Positions 29,828 through 36,117 of a DNA stretch of 64,000 nt are shown here, in pieces (within the stretch, counting starts at the first letter, position 1; every line of letters starts with the position of its first letter). The stretch is taken from the NCBI RefSeq assembly GCF_000242875.2, contig NZ_AEXL02000075.1:1-64000 (forward strand), given 5' to 3'. Origin of the DNA: Candidatus Nitrosopumilus salarius BD31 (GTDB taxonomy: Archaea > Thermoproteota > Nitrososphaeria > Nitrososphaerales > Nitrosopumilaceae). The notes beneath the pieces were generated by a model. It did no database searches, was not told where the DNA came from, and worked only from the letters and a program-made list of their open reading frames with translations. The translations under genes and the position numbers were made by a program.

Positions 29828-30463
29828 ATGTCTACTACTAGAACTATCCAAGTACTTGTGAAACTTTTACCATTAATTTTTGCACTACGTAAAGATAGAA
29901 AAAAATGGATTCATCAAGACAATCGTGAATTGGATTTAGAACAATTTAGAAAAAATGCTCGTAAAGTACTTAATTCATTCATTTCATTGGGACCTGTCTA
30001 CATAAAATTAGGACAATGGTTATCGTCAAGAGCTGATATTTTACCTCAGCCATATTTGGAAGAACTTTCAAAACTACAAGATAGTGTACCTTCTGCACCT
30101 TTTGATCAAGTTAAACCAATAATCGAAAAAGATCTTGGACCAATAAATGAAAAATTTGATAAAATTGATCCTGATTCTATCTCTGGTGCATCATTAGGAC
30201 AAGTTTATAGAGGTTCTATATCTGGTCAGCAAATTGTTATCAAAGTAAAAAGACCAGGAATTGAAAAAGTTGTAGAGGAAGATATCAAAGTCTTAAAAAA
30301 AATTCTTCCACTTGCATTAAGATTTGTGGATCCAAACTTACGTTACTCTGCAAAAGCAATGCTCTCTCAATTTATTGAAACGATTCATGAAGAAATGGAT
30401 TATACCAATGAATCTGAAAACCTCAAAAAAATAAAAAAGACATGGCAAATTCCAACAAAGTAA
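29828..30463 (+). CDS. ubiB: UbiB/ABC1 atypical kinase, N-terminal part (frameshifted)
   Basis: 211 residues carrying the first half of an ABC1/ADCK protein: LGPVYIKLGQWLSSRADILP (the KxGQ motif region), LSKLQDSVPSAP, the A/S-rich nucleotide loop SGASLGQVYRG, the lysine of IVIKVKRPG and FIETIHEEMDYTNES. UbiB-type proteins are ATPases linked to quinone synthesis. The frame runs off after NLKKIKK into a wrong tail (TWQIPTK). One extra A in the A6 run at 30433-30438 joins it to the next frame. Confidence 0.85.
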   Translation: MSTTRTIQVLVKLLPLIFALRKDRKKWIHQDNRELDLEQFRKNARKVLNSFISLGPVYIKLGQWLSSRADILPQPYLEELSKLQDSVPSAPFDQVKPIIEKDLGPINEKFDKIDPDSISGASLGQVYRGSISGQQIVIKVKRPGIEKVVEEDIKVLKKILPLALRFVDPNLRYSAKAMLSQFIETIHEEMDYTNESENLKKIKKTWQIPTK

Positions 30464-31380
30464 TTGTTCCATCTGTATATGATGACTACTCATCAAAAAA
30501 TGTCCTGACAATGGAATATCTTCCAGGTATCAAAGTGACAAATATTGAGGCTCTAGACAAAATGGGAATTGACAGGCAAAAACTTGTCATCGATGTTCAT
30601 AAGGTCTTCTTTACTATGCTTCTTAGGCATTCCATGTTTCACGCAGACCCTCATCCAGGCAATATTTCAGTAACTGACAATGGAAAATTAATTCTCTATG
30701 ATTATGGAATGGTAGGAAGATTAGACAATGAAACCCGCTTAAGATTAATTCGTCTATACTTGGCCTTGGTAGAAAAAGATCCTCCTAGAACTGTTAATGC
30801 AATGAATGATCTTGGCATGTTAACTCCTGACTTTAATCGCTCAATAATTGAGAAAGGCATTGAACTTACCGTCCAAGCCATGCATGGAAAAAAACCTGAT
30901 GAAATGGAAGTAGAAAGCTTGATGGAACTTGCAAATAAAACAATGAGTAAATTTCCTTTTGTACTTCCAAAGAATTTAGCGTTGTATATGAGAATGGCTT
31001 CAATCATTGAAGGAATTTATAAAACACACAAGATTAATTTCAAATTTGTCAAAGTTGTTAAAGAAATTTTAGAAGAAGAGAATCTAATTAAAGATGCATA
31101 CATAGAAGAAATTAAACATTCCTTCGTTAGATTTGCAAAATCAATTGATGCTACAATTTCTATTGCACCAGAACTAAAAAAATTCCTAGATGATAATAGA
31201 TCACTTCAACTTTTGAATAGAAAACCAAAATCAAATATTTTACTATCTGGTAGTATTCTTTCAGCAGCAATTTTTATTGGTTCTACAGTTTTGTATACAA
31301 CCAATGAATCTTTAGGGATAATTGGAATGATTGGTTCATTTATAATAATGAGTATTTTTACACTATATAGAAAAAGATAA
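30442..31380 (+). CDS. ubiB: UbiB/ABC1 atypical kinase, C-terminal part (frameshifted)
   Basis: 312 residues carrying the second half: VLTMEYLPGIKVTN, the catalytic FHADPHPGNISVTDNGK (HxDxHPGN) and LYDYGMVGRLD (metal-binding D-Y-G). Two C-terminal hydrophobic helices (about 265-305) anchor it in the membrane, as in UbiB. The ATG at 30442 is internal to the real gene: with one more A at 30433-30438 the fusion reads KKIKKDMANSNKVIV and the whole protein is about 517 residues. All active residues are intact across the two halves. Confidence 0.85.
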   Translation: MANSNKVIVPSVYDDYSSKNVLTMEYLPGIKVTNIEALDKMGIDRQKLVIDVHKVFFTMLLRHSMFHADPHPGNISVTDNGKLILYDYGMVGRLDNETRLRLIRLYLALVEKDPPRTVNAMNDLGMLTPDFNRSIIEKGIELTVQAMHGKKPDEMEVESLMELANKTMSKFPFVLPKNLALYMRMASIIEGIYKTHKINFKFVKVVKEILEEENLIKDAYIEEIKHSFVRFAKSIDATISIAPELKKFLDDNRSLQLLNRKPKSNILLSGSILSAAIFIGSTVLYTTNESLGIIGMIGSFIIMSIFTLYRKR

Positions 31381-31770
31381 TTATTCTATTGTGATATCCT
31401 TTCCTTGTTTTTGGACAGGAATTATAATTTTCAAAACCCCATTTTCATATTTTGCTGAAGAAACTGATTCTTCTCCATCCTTCAATTCAATCGGTAATCT
31501 AATTTTTTTATCTATGATATTTGGTCTTTGATTACAAATCATATTGTGTTTATCTTCAGAAATTTCTTTACAAGCTTGAATTGAAAGAATATTTCCATTT
31601 AGGGATAATTTAATGTCTTTTTTCATAAATCCAGGAATATCTACCAATAACGTCAGTTTGTCATCATCTAGATGCATATCTATAGGTGGTAAAACAAATT
31701 CATAAAATTCTCGTGATTTATTTCCAATCTCTTTTATCATTTCTTTTGCCATAGATTTTACTAATCCCAT
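31381..31770 (-). CDS. Small heat shock protein, Hsp20/alpha-crystallin family
   Basis: About 129 residues from ATG 31770; a TTG at 31788 would add six. The alpha-crystallin domain spans about 35-125: MHLDDDKLTLLVDIPGFMKKD, LSLNGNILSIQA, IRLPIELK and the closing AKYENGVLKIIIPVQ with the A-x-x-x-N-G-V-L signature. The tail lacks a clear I-x-I motif apart from DITIE. A cytosolic holdase chaperone. Upstream (31821-31847) is a 27-base sequence also found upstream of another gene. Confidence 0.9.
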   Translation of the reverse strand: MGLVKSMAKEMIKEIGNKSREFYEFVLPPIDMHLDDDKLTLLVDIPGFMKKDIKLSLNGNILSIQACKEISEDKHNMICNQRPNIIDKKIRLPIELKDGEESVSSAKYENGVLKIIIPVQKQGKDITIE

Positions 31771-31820
31771 TTTGAGATATGTGCTCAATTTTTGGTTATA
31801 AACCTTGATAGGATTTAGCT

Positions 31821-31847
31821 AAGTTTGTTTAACATACTTGAATTCAA
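31821..31847 (+). repeat. Dispersed direct repeat, copy 1
   Basis: AAGTTTGTTTAACATACTTG followed by AATTCAA, identical over 27 bases to 33608-33634. It lies about 50 bases upstream of the Hsp20 start and 175 bases beyond the stop of the 41-residue zinc protein gene. With copy 2 it brackets a three-gene group of secreted or small proteins. Includes the palindrome TTGAATTCAA. Confidence 0.75.
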
Positions 31848-32022
31848 GTTTAAAATTATTTTTTATGCTAAATATGAGATTTGAGAGTTTCATTTTTGAA
31901 CTATAATTTAACATAGGAAATATTGACTAGTTCTTTTAATGAGTGACTATAGATTCAAGCCTACATAGATTCACCTACCTTTTTGGAGATAAAATGAGAC
32001 GTAGATAGATGTGAAATTGAGA

Positions 32023-32148
32023 TTATTCTAACTCCGTTGAAGGATGATCTTTCCTATTTGGACATCTAAAACCAATCATATTTGTTGGTGAATCTACATC
32101 GAGTCTTTCCATAACTGCTCCACATTTTTCACATAGTCTAGTTCTCAT
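32023..32148 (-). CDS. 41-residue zinc-ribbon-like protein
   Basis: ATG at 32148 overlaps the upstream stop (ATGA) and opens a 41-codon frame ending at 32023. It contains LCEKCGAVMERLDVDS and FRCPNRKDHP: CxxC plus a later Cys and His, fitting one small zinc site. It is the last gene of a three-gene minus-strand set with two secreted proteins. No family name can be given. The coupling to the previous gene supports translation. Confidence 0.6.
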   Translation of the reverse strand: MRTRLCEKCGAVMERLDVDSPTNMIGFRCPNRKDHPSTELE

Positions 32149-32840
32149 TTTATTTCCTGCCACTCACAAATATTATTATCAATATAATGAGTTTCATTAT
32201 TAAAAGAAAGACCAATATCTAGAACTCCAAGTCCTAATGAGTCTCGATGACACCAATCTAAAATTTTTAAAACTTGTTGCATCGAATCTACATCTAAAAC
32301 CAGTCCACCGGTATTGGGATTCTCTATGTATATCGGATCTATTTTGTAATCTTCGGCATCTTCAGAAAAGCCAAAAGGATGTGAATACACATCACGGTCT
32401 AAACTAATTCCAGAATGAGTTGCCTCAGTAATCAAACAAGTGTCCTTGTCTATGTAATGAGTGTCATTGTGCCATAACGTAAAATTATCATCAACAAATT
32501 TGCCGTTTCCAGTCCAGCACCTATCCAAGGCATCCCTTAGAATAGAATCCGATTCATATTTTTCAATGGTTTGATACGCACATGAATTATTATCAAGGTG
32601 GTGAGTGGAATTGTTCCATATCATTAACGGTTGATGATCAGTTATCTTGTTTCCATCAAGACCAATCCAGTTTCTATCATCCATCATTTTCTGATAATCA
32701 CAACGCTTGAAAATTCTGTCAATTTGTTCGGCGCTAAACTTTTGGGCTTTAATTTCTTCATCAACATAATAATTTAAGACAAATGTGCAGGTGATTGCAA
32801 TTATTAAAACTCCAAAAATTATCAAAAGTCTAGTTTTCAT
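32145..32840 (-). CDS. Membrane-anchored protein with three copies of a W/N-x-TH-hD-x-C motif
   Basis: 231 residues. N-terminal anchor (LLIIFGVLIIAITCTFVLNYY), the rest outside. Three similar segments recur: LMIWNNSTHHLDNNSC, FTLWHNDTHYIDKDTC and LSFNNETHYIDNNIC, each preceded by another Cys (RCDY, RCWT, WCHR). The paired Cys and His suggest disulfides or metal binding. No known family. GC content in sampled lines is higher than in neighbouring genes. It follows the 226-residue gene by 7 bases. Confidence 0.6.
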   Translation of the reverse strand: MKTRLLIIFGVLIIAITCTFVLNYYVDEEIKAQKFSAEQIDRIFKRCDYQKMMDDRNWIGLDGNKITDHQPLMIWNNSTHHLDNNSCAYQTIEKYESDSILRDALDRCWTGNGKFVDDNFTLWHNDTHYIDKDTCLITEATHSGISLDRDVYSHPFGFSEDAEDYKIDPIYIENPNTGGLVLDVDSMQQVLKILDWCHRDSLGLGVLDIGLSFNNETHYIDNNICEWQEIK

Positions 32841-32847
32841 TTTTTAA

Positions 32848-33528
32848 TCAAATTCCAAAGTTATGTCCAAGACTATGCTGAATGATTTGAGGATAGTCAC
32901 AAGTTACCCCCTGCTCAAAATTTGCAAGTGTGTGCCACGTTAAAAAATAATCAATTCCATCTATTGTGTCAACTCCCAGATATTGCACTATGGTTACTGA
33001 GGTTCCATCATAATTATTACATTTGGCAATAAACGTATCATATTTTTCTATAATTGAATGAAACTCAAACTTGTCAGTTATTTCATAGTCTGTCCTGTCT
33101 TTGTTTCCAACTCGGTAATCCTTGTCTGCAAACGTAAACAGTGCAGTGTTTTCATCAACCAGATTCATGTTCTTTATTGTAAAGATTCCCCCTTCAAGAC
33201 CAACTCTATCAAAGTGTAGTTCGCCGTTAATTCCGTTATTTCCTGTGATAAATGAAGTAAGATGGTCTCTATCTTGGTTGTCATGTATCTTTGGTCTTTC
33301 ATAGCAGTAATGATTCATTGACGTAGTATAACAAGTGGAATCTTTTTCATCGTGTACATCTTGAAATTCATTTGGTGTGAGAGGAAAGTTTGGAATGATT
33401 TTGGCTTTGTTTAACGGGACAGAATAATTGTAAAAATCTGAAATAGATTCATAGTTTAACGAAAGTAACAACAGAGGCACCATTATTGTGCTGATCACAA
33501 ATAATGTGTTTACCGCATTCATAATCAC
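32848..33528 (-). CDS. Hypothetical membrane-anchored extracellular protein
   Basis: 226 residues. One hydrophobic N-terminal helix (NTLFVISTIMVPLLLLSLNY) works as a signal or anchor. The rest is polar with several Cys (TCYTTSMNHYCYE, AKCNNYDG, VTCDYP), suggesting disulfide bonds outside the cell. No family recognised. First gene of a three-gene set bounded by the 27-base direct repeats. Sampled lines reach about 40% G+C, above most of the window, a possible sign of transfer. Confidence 0.55.
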   Translation of the reverse strand: MIMNAVNTLFVISTIMVPLLLLSLNYESISDFYNYSVPLNKAKIIPNFPLTPNEFQDVHDEKDSTCYTTSMNHYCYERPKIHDNQDRDHLTSFITGNNGINGELHFDRVGLEGGIFTIKNMNLVDENTALFTFADKDYRVGNKDRTDYEITDKFEFHSIIEKYDTFIAKCNNYDGTSVTIVQYLGVDTIDGIDYFLTWHTLANFEQGVTCDYPQIIQHSLGHNFGI

Positions 33529-33607
33529 TCAAACTGACTGTATGAGATTCATAAGTACTTCGTATCTTTTAATCAGTGGTTTTGAGGCTCAACTTTACTG
33601 GATTCAG

Positions 33608-33634
33608 AAGTTTGTTTAACATACTTGAATTCAA
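33608..33634 (+). repeat. Dispersed direct repeat, copy 2
   Basis: Identical over 27 bases to 31821-31847. It lies 80 bases upstream of the 226-residue gene. It is followed 25 bases later by a diverged copy (33659-33698), so two related elements stand side by side between the two secreted-protein groups. Confidence 0.75.
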
Positions 33635-33658
33635 AAATAATCATTGAGATATTGTGTC

Positions 33659-33698
33659 AAGTTTATTCAACATAATTCAGCACAAAATATTCAGATCG
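33659..33698 (+). repeat. Dispersed direct repeat, copy 3 (40-base form)
   Basis: Starts AAGTTTATTCAACATAATTC and ends AAATATTCAGATCG. The same start and exactly the same 14-base end recur at 35369-35408. This copy lies just beyond the stop codon of the 530-residue gene, so that gene is bracketed by copies 3 and 4. Confidence 0.65.
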
Positions 33699-33717
33699 TA
33701 GATTATTTCTAATTAAA

Positions 33718-35310
33718 TTATCTAATAATTCCTTGACTAACTAGAAATTCTATCCCTTTAACAAAATCTCCTTCAGAAATTAATCCATCAGCCCACCACC
33801 CTGCATTGTTTTTAATCCAAGAAGGAATTTCTTGAGAAGCTGTCGATTGTGTTTCAGTAATTGGAATTTGGATAATATTTTCTTTAATTAAAAATTGAAT
33901 TGATTGAACAAATTCTCCATCTCCCACAACTCCATCAGCCCACCACCCTGCATTGTTTTTAATCCAAGAAGGAACAAATGGAGTTTCCTCTTCCATTTTT
34001 AGGGATTGTGAAGTGAAACTAAGGTTAGATTGTGATGTAAAAAACTTTTCAAAGTTTTTAGAGTTATCACCAGTTAAAATAATTTTTAGTAGATATTGTC
34101 CATCATTTGGAACAAAAACAGATTCTTGATAAATTCCATACGGAGTTAATATACCAAGATACTTCTCAGAAGTTCCAATATTTGCGGAAATTTCGTTTCC
34201 ATATTTATCAGAAATACTATATGCAAACAAAAGGTCTTTTGCAGGGTCGTTATTAGTATCAAAGAAAGAAAACGTAAGAGGAATTTCTTTGCCAGTTGTT
34301 AATTTGGAATCCCAGAAAACTCTTGCTGAAAAACCATTTTCAAACATTAAATCAAGATTTTCATAATCAATTTGTTCACCAGATATAATTTCTAAATTTA
34401 TTAGATCGTTATCATTCTTGATTGATGTTAGTTCTTCATGTGGAATATTAATCTGAATAATATTTTCATTAGGATTTAGAACATCAAAATTGAAATAATC
34501 ATCGTGAATTTTAGTCCCTTCTACAAAAATATCAATGTCATACCCTTGTTTGAAATCTTGGAAATCCTTTTCCAAAAATACTAGTTGGCTAATTCCTGAT
34601 TCATGCTTATGTTCATTCCAATTATAGGGTATTTTATATGAAATTTTTTTTAATGATTCATCATAATTGAAATCTAAAATTTCATCATTGTAAGATTTTA
34701 CATGTACTGGAAATTCTTGAGCATTTGCAATTTTAACTGGAAATGTTTGTTTATCAGGTAGATGCAAAACGGTTTCAAAGAGCAAATCTTTTGTGGTCAT
34801 AGTTTTTGGATTTGTTGCACCGACAATGGAAACTTGAATATTATATTGTCCACTTTTATCAAAAACAGGACCTTTAATTGTTGGTAATGACTCACCTCTT
34901 GCATAATAGGCTCCTGCAATTGCATGCTTTTCACCATTATAGGTAGTACATTTCCAAAGATTTTGATCTTGACATCCCGATGTAGGTTTAATCTCCAATT
35001 CCAGGTTTCCATCATCATCATAAAAATACTCATTTGCAACAAGAGAATTCTCATGAAATATCTGAACTCTATATGTCACACTTGAAATGTTATCGTTAGT
35101 ATTGCTATCAAAAAATCTAATTGATAAATTAGCACTTTTAGAATCACCAAATGTGAAATCCTCTGGAGATAGAATTGTGGTCAGTGCTACTTTTAATCCA
35201 TCAAAATCTATTGGTGGTGCAAGAGATCCAGAATGATGTTGGGCATATGCAGGAGTAATAGAAATAGCAAATAATCCCAAAAACAGTAACAAAATTAATT
35301 TTGAAATCAT
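33718..35310 (-). CDS. Secreted surface protein with two C-terminal IKNNAGWW repeats
   Basis: 530 residues. Signal peptide 1-23 (LILLLFLGLFAISITPAYAQ), mature end HHSGSLAPP. A beta-rich region holds VTYRVQIFHENSLVANEYF, a shared motif also found in the surface proteins at 53.8 and 63.5 kb. The C-terminus carries two copies of PSWIKNNAGWWADG followed by FVxxIxFLxxxxII, a repeat widespread in thaumarchaeal secreted proteins and possibly a surface-binding module. No PEFG anchor. Bracketed by direct repeats at 33659 and 35369. Confidence 0.7.
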   Translation of the reverse strand: MISKLILLLFLGLFAISITPAYAQHHSGSLAPPIDFDGLKVALTTILSPEDFTFGDSKSANLSIRFFDSNTNDNISSVTYRVQIFHENSLVANEYFYDDDGNLELEIKPTSGCQDQNLWKCTTYNGEKHAIAGAYYARGESLPTIKGPVFDKSGQYNIQVSIVGATNPKTMTTKDLLFETVLHLPDKQTFPVKIANAQEFPVHVKSYNDEILDFNYDESLKKISYKIPYNWNEHKHESGISQLVFLEKDFQDFKQGYDIDIFVEGTKIHDDYFNFDVLNPNENIIQINIPHEELTSIKNDNDLINLEIISGEQIDYENLDLMFENGFSARVFWDSKLTTGKEIPLTFSFFDTNNDPAKDLLFAYSISDKYGNEISANIGTSEKYLGILTPYGIYQESVFVPNDGQYLLKIILTGDNSKNFEKFFTSQSNLSFTSQSLKMEEETPFVPSWIKNNAGWWADGVVGDGEFVQSIQFLIKENIIQIPITETQSTASQEIPSWIKNNAGWWADGLISEGDFVKGIEFLVSQGIIR

Positions 35311-35368
35311 TATTTTGGATATTTTGAATAAATCTGTATCAGATTATAAATCATTTAGACATTCAGCT

Positions 35369-35408
35369 AAGTTTCTTTAACATATTCAAGCGTGAAATAT
35401 TCAGATCG
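35369..35408 (+). repeat. Dispersed direct repeat, copy 4 (40-base form)
   Basis: Starts AAGTTTCTTTAACATATTCA and ends AAATATTCAGATCG, matching copy 3 in direct orientation. It lies about 60 bases upstream of the 530-residue secreted-protein gene. Confidence 0.65.
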
Positions 35409-35436
35409 GCTTGATTGATTTTTCTGTTTCTGTAAT

Positions 35437-35490
35437 TACTGACAGTGCTCTGGTGTCTGTGCGTGTGTGTTAATAAGAGACTTGTCAGTA
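35437..35490. other. Spaced inverted repeat in the gap before the Tmk-like gene
   Basis: TACTGACA (35437-35444) and TGTCAGTA (35483-35490) are perfect inverted arms enclosing 38 bases that are richer in G and T (GTGTCTGTGCGTGTGTGT) than the surrounding AT-rich DNA. It could be an operator or a small structured RNA. Nothing else was noticed between the direct repeat and the gene at 35536. Confidence 0.35.
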
Positions 35491-35535
35491 TCTTGATAGA
35501 TTTTTAATCAATTAATTTCTCTGTTTTGATAACTT

Positions 35536-36117
35536 ATGATAATTGTAATTGAAGGTGGTGACCAAGCAGGGAAACTAACTCAATCAACCATGTTGGAAAA
35601 ATCCCTTAAAAAACGAAAGATCAAAACCAAACTCTTTCATTTTCCTGACTACAAAACCCCAATAGGAAAAGAAATTAGGCAATATTTAGATGGAAACAGA
35701 AAATTTCCCCCACAAGTAATTCATTGTTTATTGTCTGCGAATAGATGGGAAAAACTTGACGAAATTTTGGCAGCCCAAGATAAAAATTCTGTATTGATAA
35801 TGAATCGTTACTATCATTCCAATCTGATTTATGGAATTGCAAATGGTATGAAACAAAGTTGGCTTGAGAATCTTGATGCTGGACTCCCAAAGGCTGATCT
35901 TGTAATTTTACTTGATGTCACACAAAAAGAATCATTTCAAAGACAAAAAACTAATCGAGACAAGTTTGAAAAAAATGAAGAATTTTTAAGAAAAATATCT
36001 AAAATTTATCGTGCAACTGCTAAAAAGAAACATTGGAAAATAATCGATGCGTCAAAATCTAAAGAAGAAGTACACGAAGAGATCATGAAAATATTCTCAA
36101 AGAAAATAGGATTATGA
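35536..36117 (+). CDS. Thymidylate kinase-like protein with altered P-loop
   Basis: 193 residues. The fold and order fit dTMP kinase: IIVIEGGDQAGKLTQSTML, then FHFPDYKTPIGKEIRQYL, NRYYHSNLIYG and ADLVILLDV with QRQK as the lid region. Two usual residues differ: the Ser/Thr after the P-loop Lys is Leu (GKLT instead of GKST), and the DR motif reads NR. It could still be a nucleotide kinase with changed metal use. The stop overlaps the HD gene by four bases (ATGA). Confidence 0.75.
   Translation: MIIVIEGGDQAGKLTQSTMLEKSLKKRKIKTKLFHFPDYKTPIGKEIRQYLDGNRKFPPQVIHCLLSANRWEKLDEILAAQDKNSVLIMNRYYHSNLIYGIANGMKQSWLENLDAGLPKADLVILLDVTQKESFQRQKTNRDKFEKNEEFLRKISKIYRATAKKKHWKIIDASKSKEEVHEEIMKIFSKKIGL

Follow-up and report, generated by a model that had tools for sequence, protein, structure and literature searches.

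Between the core genes hsp20 and tmk, the window (the whole stretch of 64,000 nucleotides of Candidatus Nitrosopumilus salarius BD31 analysed here) contains a patch of accessory genes that, to judge from its sequence, is very probably a tandem array of integrative elements, site-specific in their insertion and by now decayed. A row of mobile elements is the best reading of how accessory surface-protein genes come to lie between two core genes. An intact element would carry a tyrosine recombinase gene at its tmk-side end and, at the hsp20 side, an end of ~45 bp with a 19-bp palindrome. It would insert at an 8-bp core, which then flanks the insert on both sides, and the 27-base repeat of the patch would be the integrase-distal attachment end. 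The insertions would be made by a tyrosine recombinase of the integrase clade through strand exchange within the 8-bp core. The units may circulate as circles, while those without an integrase would either be moved in trans or be relics.

The hsp20/tmk target

Many relatives have hsp20 and tmk side by side in divergent orientation, with ~80 bp between their start codons and one copy of CTTGATAG in the intergenic sequence (...GGTTATAAACCTTGATAGATTTTTAATCAATTAATTTC...). In the window, the hsp20 flank is intact up to a copy of this octamer, the tmk flank begins with another, and the accessory genes lie between them (Table 1). The octamer is therefore a direct repeat with two copies in the window and a single one in the empty relatives, as is expected of an integrative element. 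The preliminary description had proposed a modular gain of accessory cassettes, with empty sites in related strains. The gain is supported by empty sites in many relatives and by the relocation of one unit, and the cassette idea is confirmed by the doubling of the octamer around the accessory genes. Empty hsp20/tmk alleles do exist in many relatives, but it is the octamer and not, as had been supposed, the repeat that is left there.

Other relatives have different DNA, from 0.2 to more than 2 kb long, at the same point. The insertion falls between the two TATA boxes, and the hsp20 and tmk promoters therefore both survive. A clear site is kept at only 3 of the 22 filled hsp20/tmk loci examined; with clear copies in such a minority, the locus also houses decayed or different inserts.

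Table 1. Features of the accessory patch and of its borders (positions in the window)
Feature	Position	Strand	Remarks
hsp20 (small heat-shock protein), left core gene	31381..31773	-	Pfam HSP20 9.7e-12; adjoins tmk in empty relatives
Left 8-bp core CTTGATAG, hsp20-side border	31804..31811	+	Present once in empty relatives
Site 1, putative hsp20-type element end, palindrome 31821-31839	31812..31866	-	Same end at hsp20 in L171, L164, L234
Cargo: short zinc-ribbon ORF and 231-aa protein	32038..32840	-	231-aa protein in 11/120 relatives, patchy in genus
Cargo: 226-aa protein	32848..33528	-	In 27/120 relatives, elsewhere in genome; 83% paralogue on own contig C74
Site 2, putative element end with no cargo recognised as its own, abuts site 3	33599..33641	-	Like tandems in L234, L378, L215
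Site 3 core CATTGAGA, identical to rps19e target core	33642..33649	+	
Site 3, putative rps19e-type element end, travels with 530-aa gene	33650..33704	-	Homologous to rps19e upstream region of relatives
Cargo: 530-aa secreted IKNNAGWW protein	33718..35310	-	G030 orthologue 86% identical, unit borders match
Site 4 core CATTTAGA	35352..35359	+	
Site 4, putative element end upstream of TATA box of 530-aa gene	35360..35408	-	Absent upstream of G030 orthologue
Decayed 5' stub of tyrosine recombinase gene (promoter and ~11 codons)	35409..35491	-	Aligns with start of G323 integrase
Right 8-bp core CTTGATAG, tmk-side border	35492..35499	+	
tmk (thymidylate kinase), right core gene	35536..36117	+	Pfam 8.7e-38; present in 57/60 genus genomes

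Read from tmk to hsp20, the array consists of a core, the integrase stub, site 4, a core, the 530-aa gene, site 3 and a core, continued by site 2, an unclear core, the genes for p226, p231 and the zinc ribbon, site 1 and the last core. This order is read as the relic of an element because the stub aligns with the start of the integrase gene of G323.

The flank on the hsp20 side shows a variation of its own. A pair of genes for a UbiB-type kinase and hsp20 (29828-31773) falls into two allele groups across species, with ~88/85% versus ~71/66% identity to the window (compared at loci L100, L106, L109, L165, L168, L170 and L171), and its neighbours (tmk, HD and UMP-kinase) remain ~80-99% identical. 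The two groups suggest an exchange of this flank.

The repeat

Comparison within the window bears out most of what had been described of the repeat: the 27 bases at 31821-31847 recur without differences at 33608-33634, with 0 matches to their 25-base core in 100 shuffles; the related 40-base form occurs at 33659-33698 and at 35369-35408, with 77% identity across 60 bases; all four copies share one strand; and copies 1, 2 and 4 lie upstream of gene starts. The repeats are not, however, the borders of the cassettes as had been thought, since these are the 8-bp octamers, 9 bp away. The first cassette had also been called richer in G+C than its neighbours. Its value, taken from copy 1 to copy 2, does exceed the window mean (33.6% versus 32.7%), but this is the 69th percentile among equal-sized segments and makes a weak argument for foreign origin.

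With at most one mismatch, the 16-base core of the repeat has only the four window copies in the whole 1.57-Mb draft genome; a fifth, weaker copy of the repeat is found upstream of rps19e on a different contig. The 19 bp of the repeat core AAGTWTGTTNAACAWACTT form a palindrome that is nearly perfect, a feature absent from the preliminary description. A genus-wide regulon built on this palindrome was considered and dropped, as matches with two mismatches across the genus occur at about the chance level of a reversed control. The exact 21-base pattern was not found in the viral contigs searched.

The same end at other targets and in other genera

The search of related genomes that had been proposed for the repeat found the same end in many genomes of the genus, at several targets. 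Matches to a sequence-only model of the end (R1), run on the genus genomes, lie at rps19e, at hsp20, past the 3' end of the site-2 protease gene and at solitary places; in relatives, the same sequence precedes the TATA box of rps19e by 25 bp. Read toward the target gene, the layout of the copies is constant: variable cargo, a sequence close to ATTTACGCTGAATATGTTnAACAAACTT, about nine bases (AGCTGAATA or similar) and the target octamer, which is CTATCAAG at hsp20, TCTCAATG at rps19e and CTTTAGGT at the protease. That the cores differ among the three targets counts against the integrative-element reading, which does not account for such specificity.

Empty alleles are found at these other targets too. 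In the empty rnp4/rps19e allele, the rnp4 reading frame stops at the rps19e TATA box, and the empty S2P-protease/ncs6 junction reads AAAATACCTAAAGAATCATTAATG. Of the usable filled rps19e loci, 13 of 14 have the end at a fixed offset with at most 3 mismatches, compared with none of 15 empty ones (Fisher, 2e-7). At S2P, 7 of 9 usable filled loci have it at a fixed offset with at most 4 mismatches, compared with none of 19 empty ones (3e-5). These counts treat related species as independent and come mostly from draft assemblies. At the far border, the same core persists over 6 to 11 bases, and the rest is not conserved in most integrase-less inserts; the cargo is different at each insertion. In the empty genomes of loci L254-L279, rnp4, the gene for a component of RNase P, extends at its end into the rps19e TATA region.

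A second model (R2), run on 400 genomes of the order, detects the end in 41 of them, all belonging to this family (the own genus and two others) except for one weak match. The targets in the two other genera include rnp4/rps19e, again hsp20, and also the 3' end of a proteasome gene. Directly abutting tandem sites occur in the window and in G087, G323 and G093, a hint that the neighbourhood of a resident site may be a preferred insertion point. Past the 45-bp end, site 1 (31858-31960) shares up to ~135 bp with L230, L235 and L228, which are sites at other targets in G051, G055 and G031. No convincing sites were seen near p226 homologues elsewhere. A kinship of p231 with the MKTRLLI proteins of the G323 insert was rejected, as they have just six residues in common, at the start.

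Relocation of the 530-aa gene

In relatives, the 530-aa gene is located between rnp4 and rps19e. The unit of G030, whose protein is 86% identical, starts with TCTCAATG/ATTTATAATCTG and closes with an rps19e-type site and TCTCAATGATT; the unit of the window, between hsp20 and tmk, starts with TCTAAATG/ATTTATAATCTG and closes with a site of the same type and TCTCAATGATT. Because the borders match at rnp4/rps19e in G030 and at hsp20/tmk in the window, the gene has moved as a unit. The rps19e gene of this genome (contig C42) has different DNA upstream. Another cargo, a thrombospondin-repeat protein, is found with a site at rps19e in G032; G051 has a relative of it together with a site at a different locus.

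Two distant paralogues of the 530-aa protein are encoded in tandem at the right end of a contig (G000:C97 63496-66969), partly beyond the window, and tandem pairs of this kind are present in many relatives.

The recombinases

In G043, the 530-aa gene precedes a degenerate site and the core TCTCAATGATT, with a tyrosine recombinase gene ~45 bp further on. In a family-wide search, the nearest proteins to this recombinase are those of G044 (54%), G073 (53%) and G323, a member of another genus (48%), while most others reach 28-41%. In G073, G044 and G323 the recombinase gene is the first gene beside the core and adjoins rnp4, ncs6 and tmk, respectively. These four related recombinases lie at three targets; one is intact, and the rest are truncated where a contig ends, interrupted by an early stop or degraded. 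The intact one, from G323 (L425:5258-6556), has 432 aa, matches Phage_integrase at 5.8e-18 and contains the segments AGTRIGE, HIFRH and ARYTHL, at what we take to be the expected places of the catalytic residues of the family. With the models that were run, the integrases match Phage_integrase and general phage integrase PHROGs. A primase-like protein is encoded deeper inside the element, beyond the integrase, and full elements may therefore be virus- or plasmid-like.

The window itself retains a stub of such a gene. The 83 bases from the tmk-side core inward to site 4 align with the promoter and first codons of the G323 integrase gene, and no alignment as good was obtained in 5000 shuffles; the stub has lost its start codon and runs straight into site 4. 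In the own genome, no relative of this integrase is found at E<=1e-15. G030, G082 and G087 have strong sites, yet no PF00589 match at E<=0.001. In the short flanks around integrase matches, L390 was the only locus with sites; it is the rps19e end of G043 and was added to this set separately. In G032, an integrase-primase-ATPase element (L386 5555-12717) lies directly between a topoisomerase VI gene and a solitary rps19e-type site.

Alternative explanations

The cassettes could also be shuffled by ordinary homologous or microhomology-mediated recombination at short repeats, with no dedicated recombinase. The border repeats are indeed short, at 6-11 bp, integrases are missing from many units and several filled loci lack a clear site, but we regard this as unlikely: in three genera, different cargo occupies the same target positions, one side of which has the conserved end, and the core is adjoined by integrases of a single clade. 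Recombination between the direct repeats themselves, as put forward in the preliminary description, does not agree with the behaviour of these repeats as an attachment end beside an 8-bp core that is duplicated on the far side, and it is also opposed by the intact relatives that encode a tyrosine recombinase at the far border. The palindromic nature of the repeat, and the exactly 25 bp that in many species separate it from the start of TATA at hsp20, p530 and rps19e, would fit a promoter element, or an operator for a local regulator, that had spread to positions upstream of hsp20, p226, p530 and rps19e. At hsp20 and rps19e, this spacing is constant because it is set by the target sequence, and the empty alleles of both genes lack the repeat and yet keep their TATA boxes. 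A shared promoter motif, the competing explanation offered earlier, fails as a general account at the S2P-protease and proteasome subunit genes, where the same end lies past the 3' ends with no TATA box at that spacing, and is very improbable. A regulatory side effect of the repeat would not contradict the integrative-element reading.

An array of genes and sites with one conserved end and a GTT/AAC core is also reminiscent of an integron with attC sites, and archaeal integrons exist (PMC9668308). This can hardly apply here, as RNAalifold on 36 sites finds no pairs and no conserved hairpin, the border is ~24 bp from the GTT box instead of at it, and the integrases fit ordinary Phage_integrase models. 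The 8-bp direct repeats at the borders could also be the target-site duplication of a transposon family of the IS or casposon type. Such a family is highly improbable here: the exact target is reused, a tyrosine recombinase is the gene at the other end, and the site is conserved at one end only, with no inverted copy at the other; the terminal inverted repeats of DDE transposons and casposons were not found.

Relation to known systems

Marine ammonia-oxidising archaea are abundant and hard to manipulate genetically. If the integrative-element reading is correct, it accounts for strain differences next to core genes, and the end together with the core is a searchable signature of the entry points of accessory genes in the genomes of these organisms. 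It also names a candidate recombinase with defined sites, perhaps usable as a genetic tool. More tentatively, the sequences may represent a gene-cassette platform other than the integron, in which integrase-less units of cargo plus a ~45-bp end would be mobilised in trans by a dedicated clade of recombinases. It could be imagined, with the same reserve, that a few fixed docking sites in this archaeal family let such arrays supply accessory genes beside core genes.

In the dif/pdif modules moved by Xer recombinases, small gene modules are bordered by short dyad-symmetric sites. The present units resemble them in their small gene modules, in the short dyad-symmetric sites and in a recombinase that may act in trans, but here the dyad occurs at a single border, 9 bp away from the putative exchange region.

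Integrated mobile elements with tyrosine recombinases, including cryptic ones, are known from Thaumarchaeota (PMC6563490), with att sites as short as 8 bp (PMC8371274). The tyrosine recombinase, which here is encoded by relatives at the same targets, the short direct repeats and the intergenic and gene-end targets are shared with these elements (PMC6563490); unlike them, most of the present units are integrase-less, consist of cargo and one conserved end and form tandem arrays, and the targets recur across three genera. The main text of PMC6563490 contains no terms for these targets, and no description of the targets or of the end was found in the part of the literature searched. Archaeal integrons and integrase-less attC clusters (PMC9668308) are similar in that genes and sites are arranged in rows with no integrase nearby and in that the cargo is mostly oriented with the site. 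They differ from the present arrays, which have no attC structure, another border and several docking sites, and in which no IntI was found with the models run, Phage_integrase and the general phage integrase PHROGs.

As regards the nature of the cargo, the insert of G066 at protease/ncs6 (L315 4412-5404) resembles a toxin-antitoxin pair of the RelBE type.
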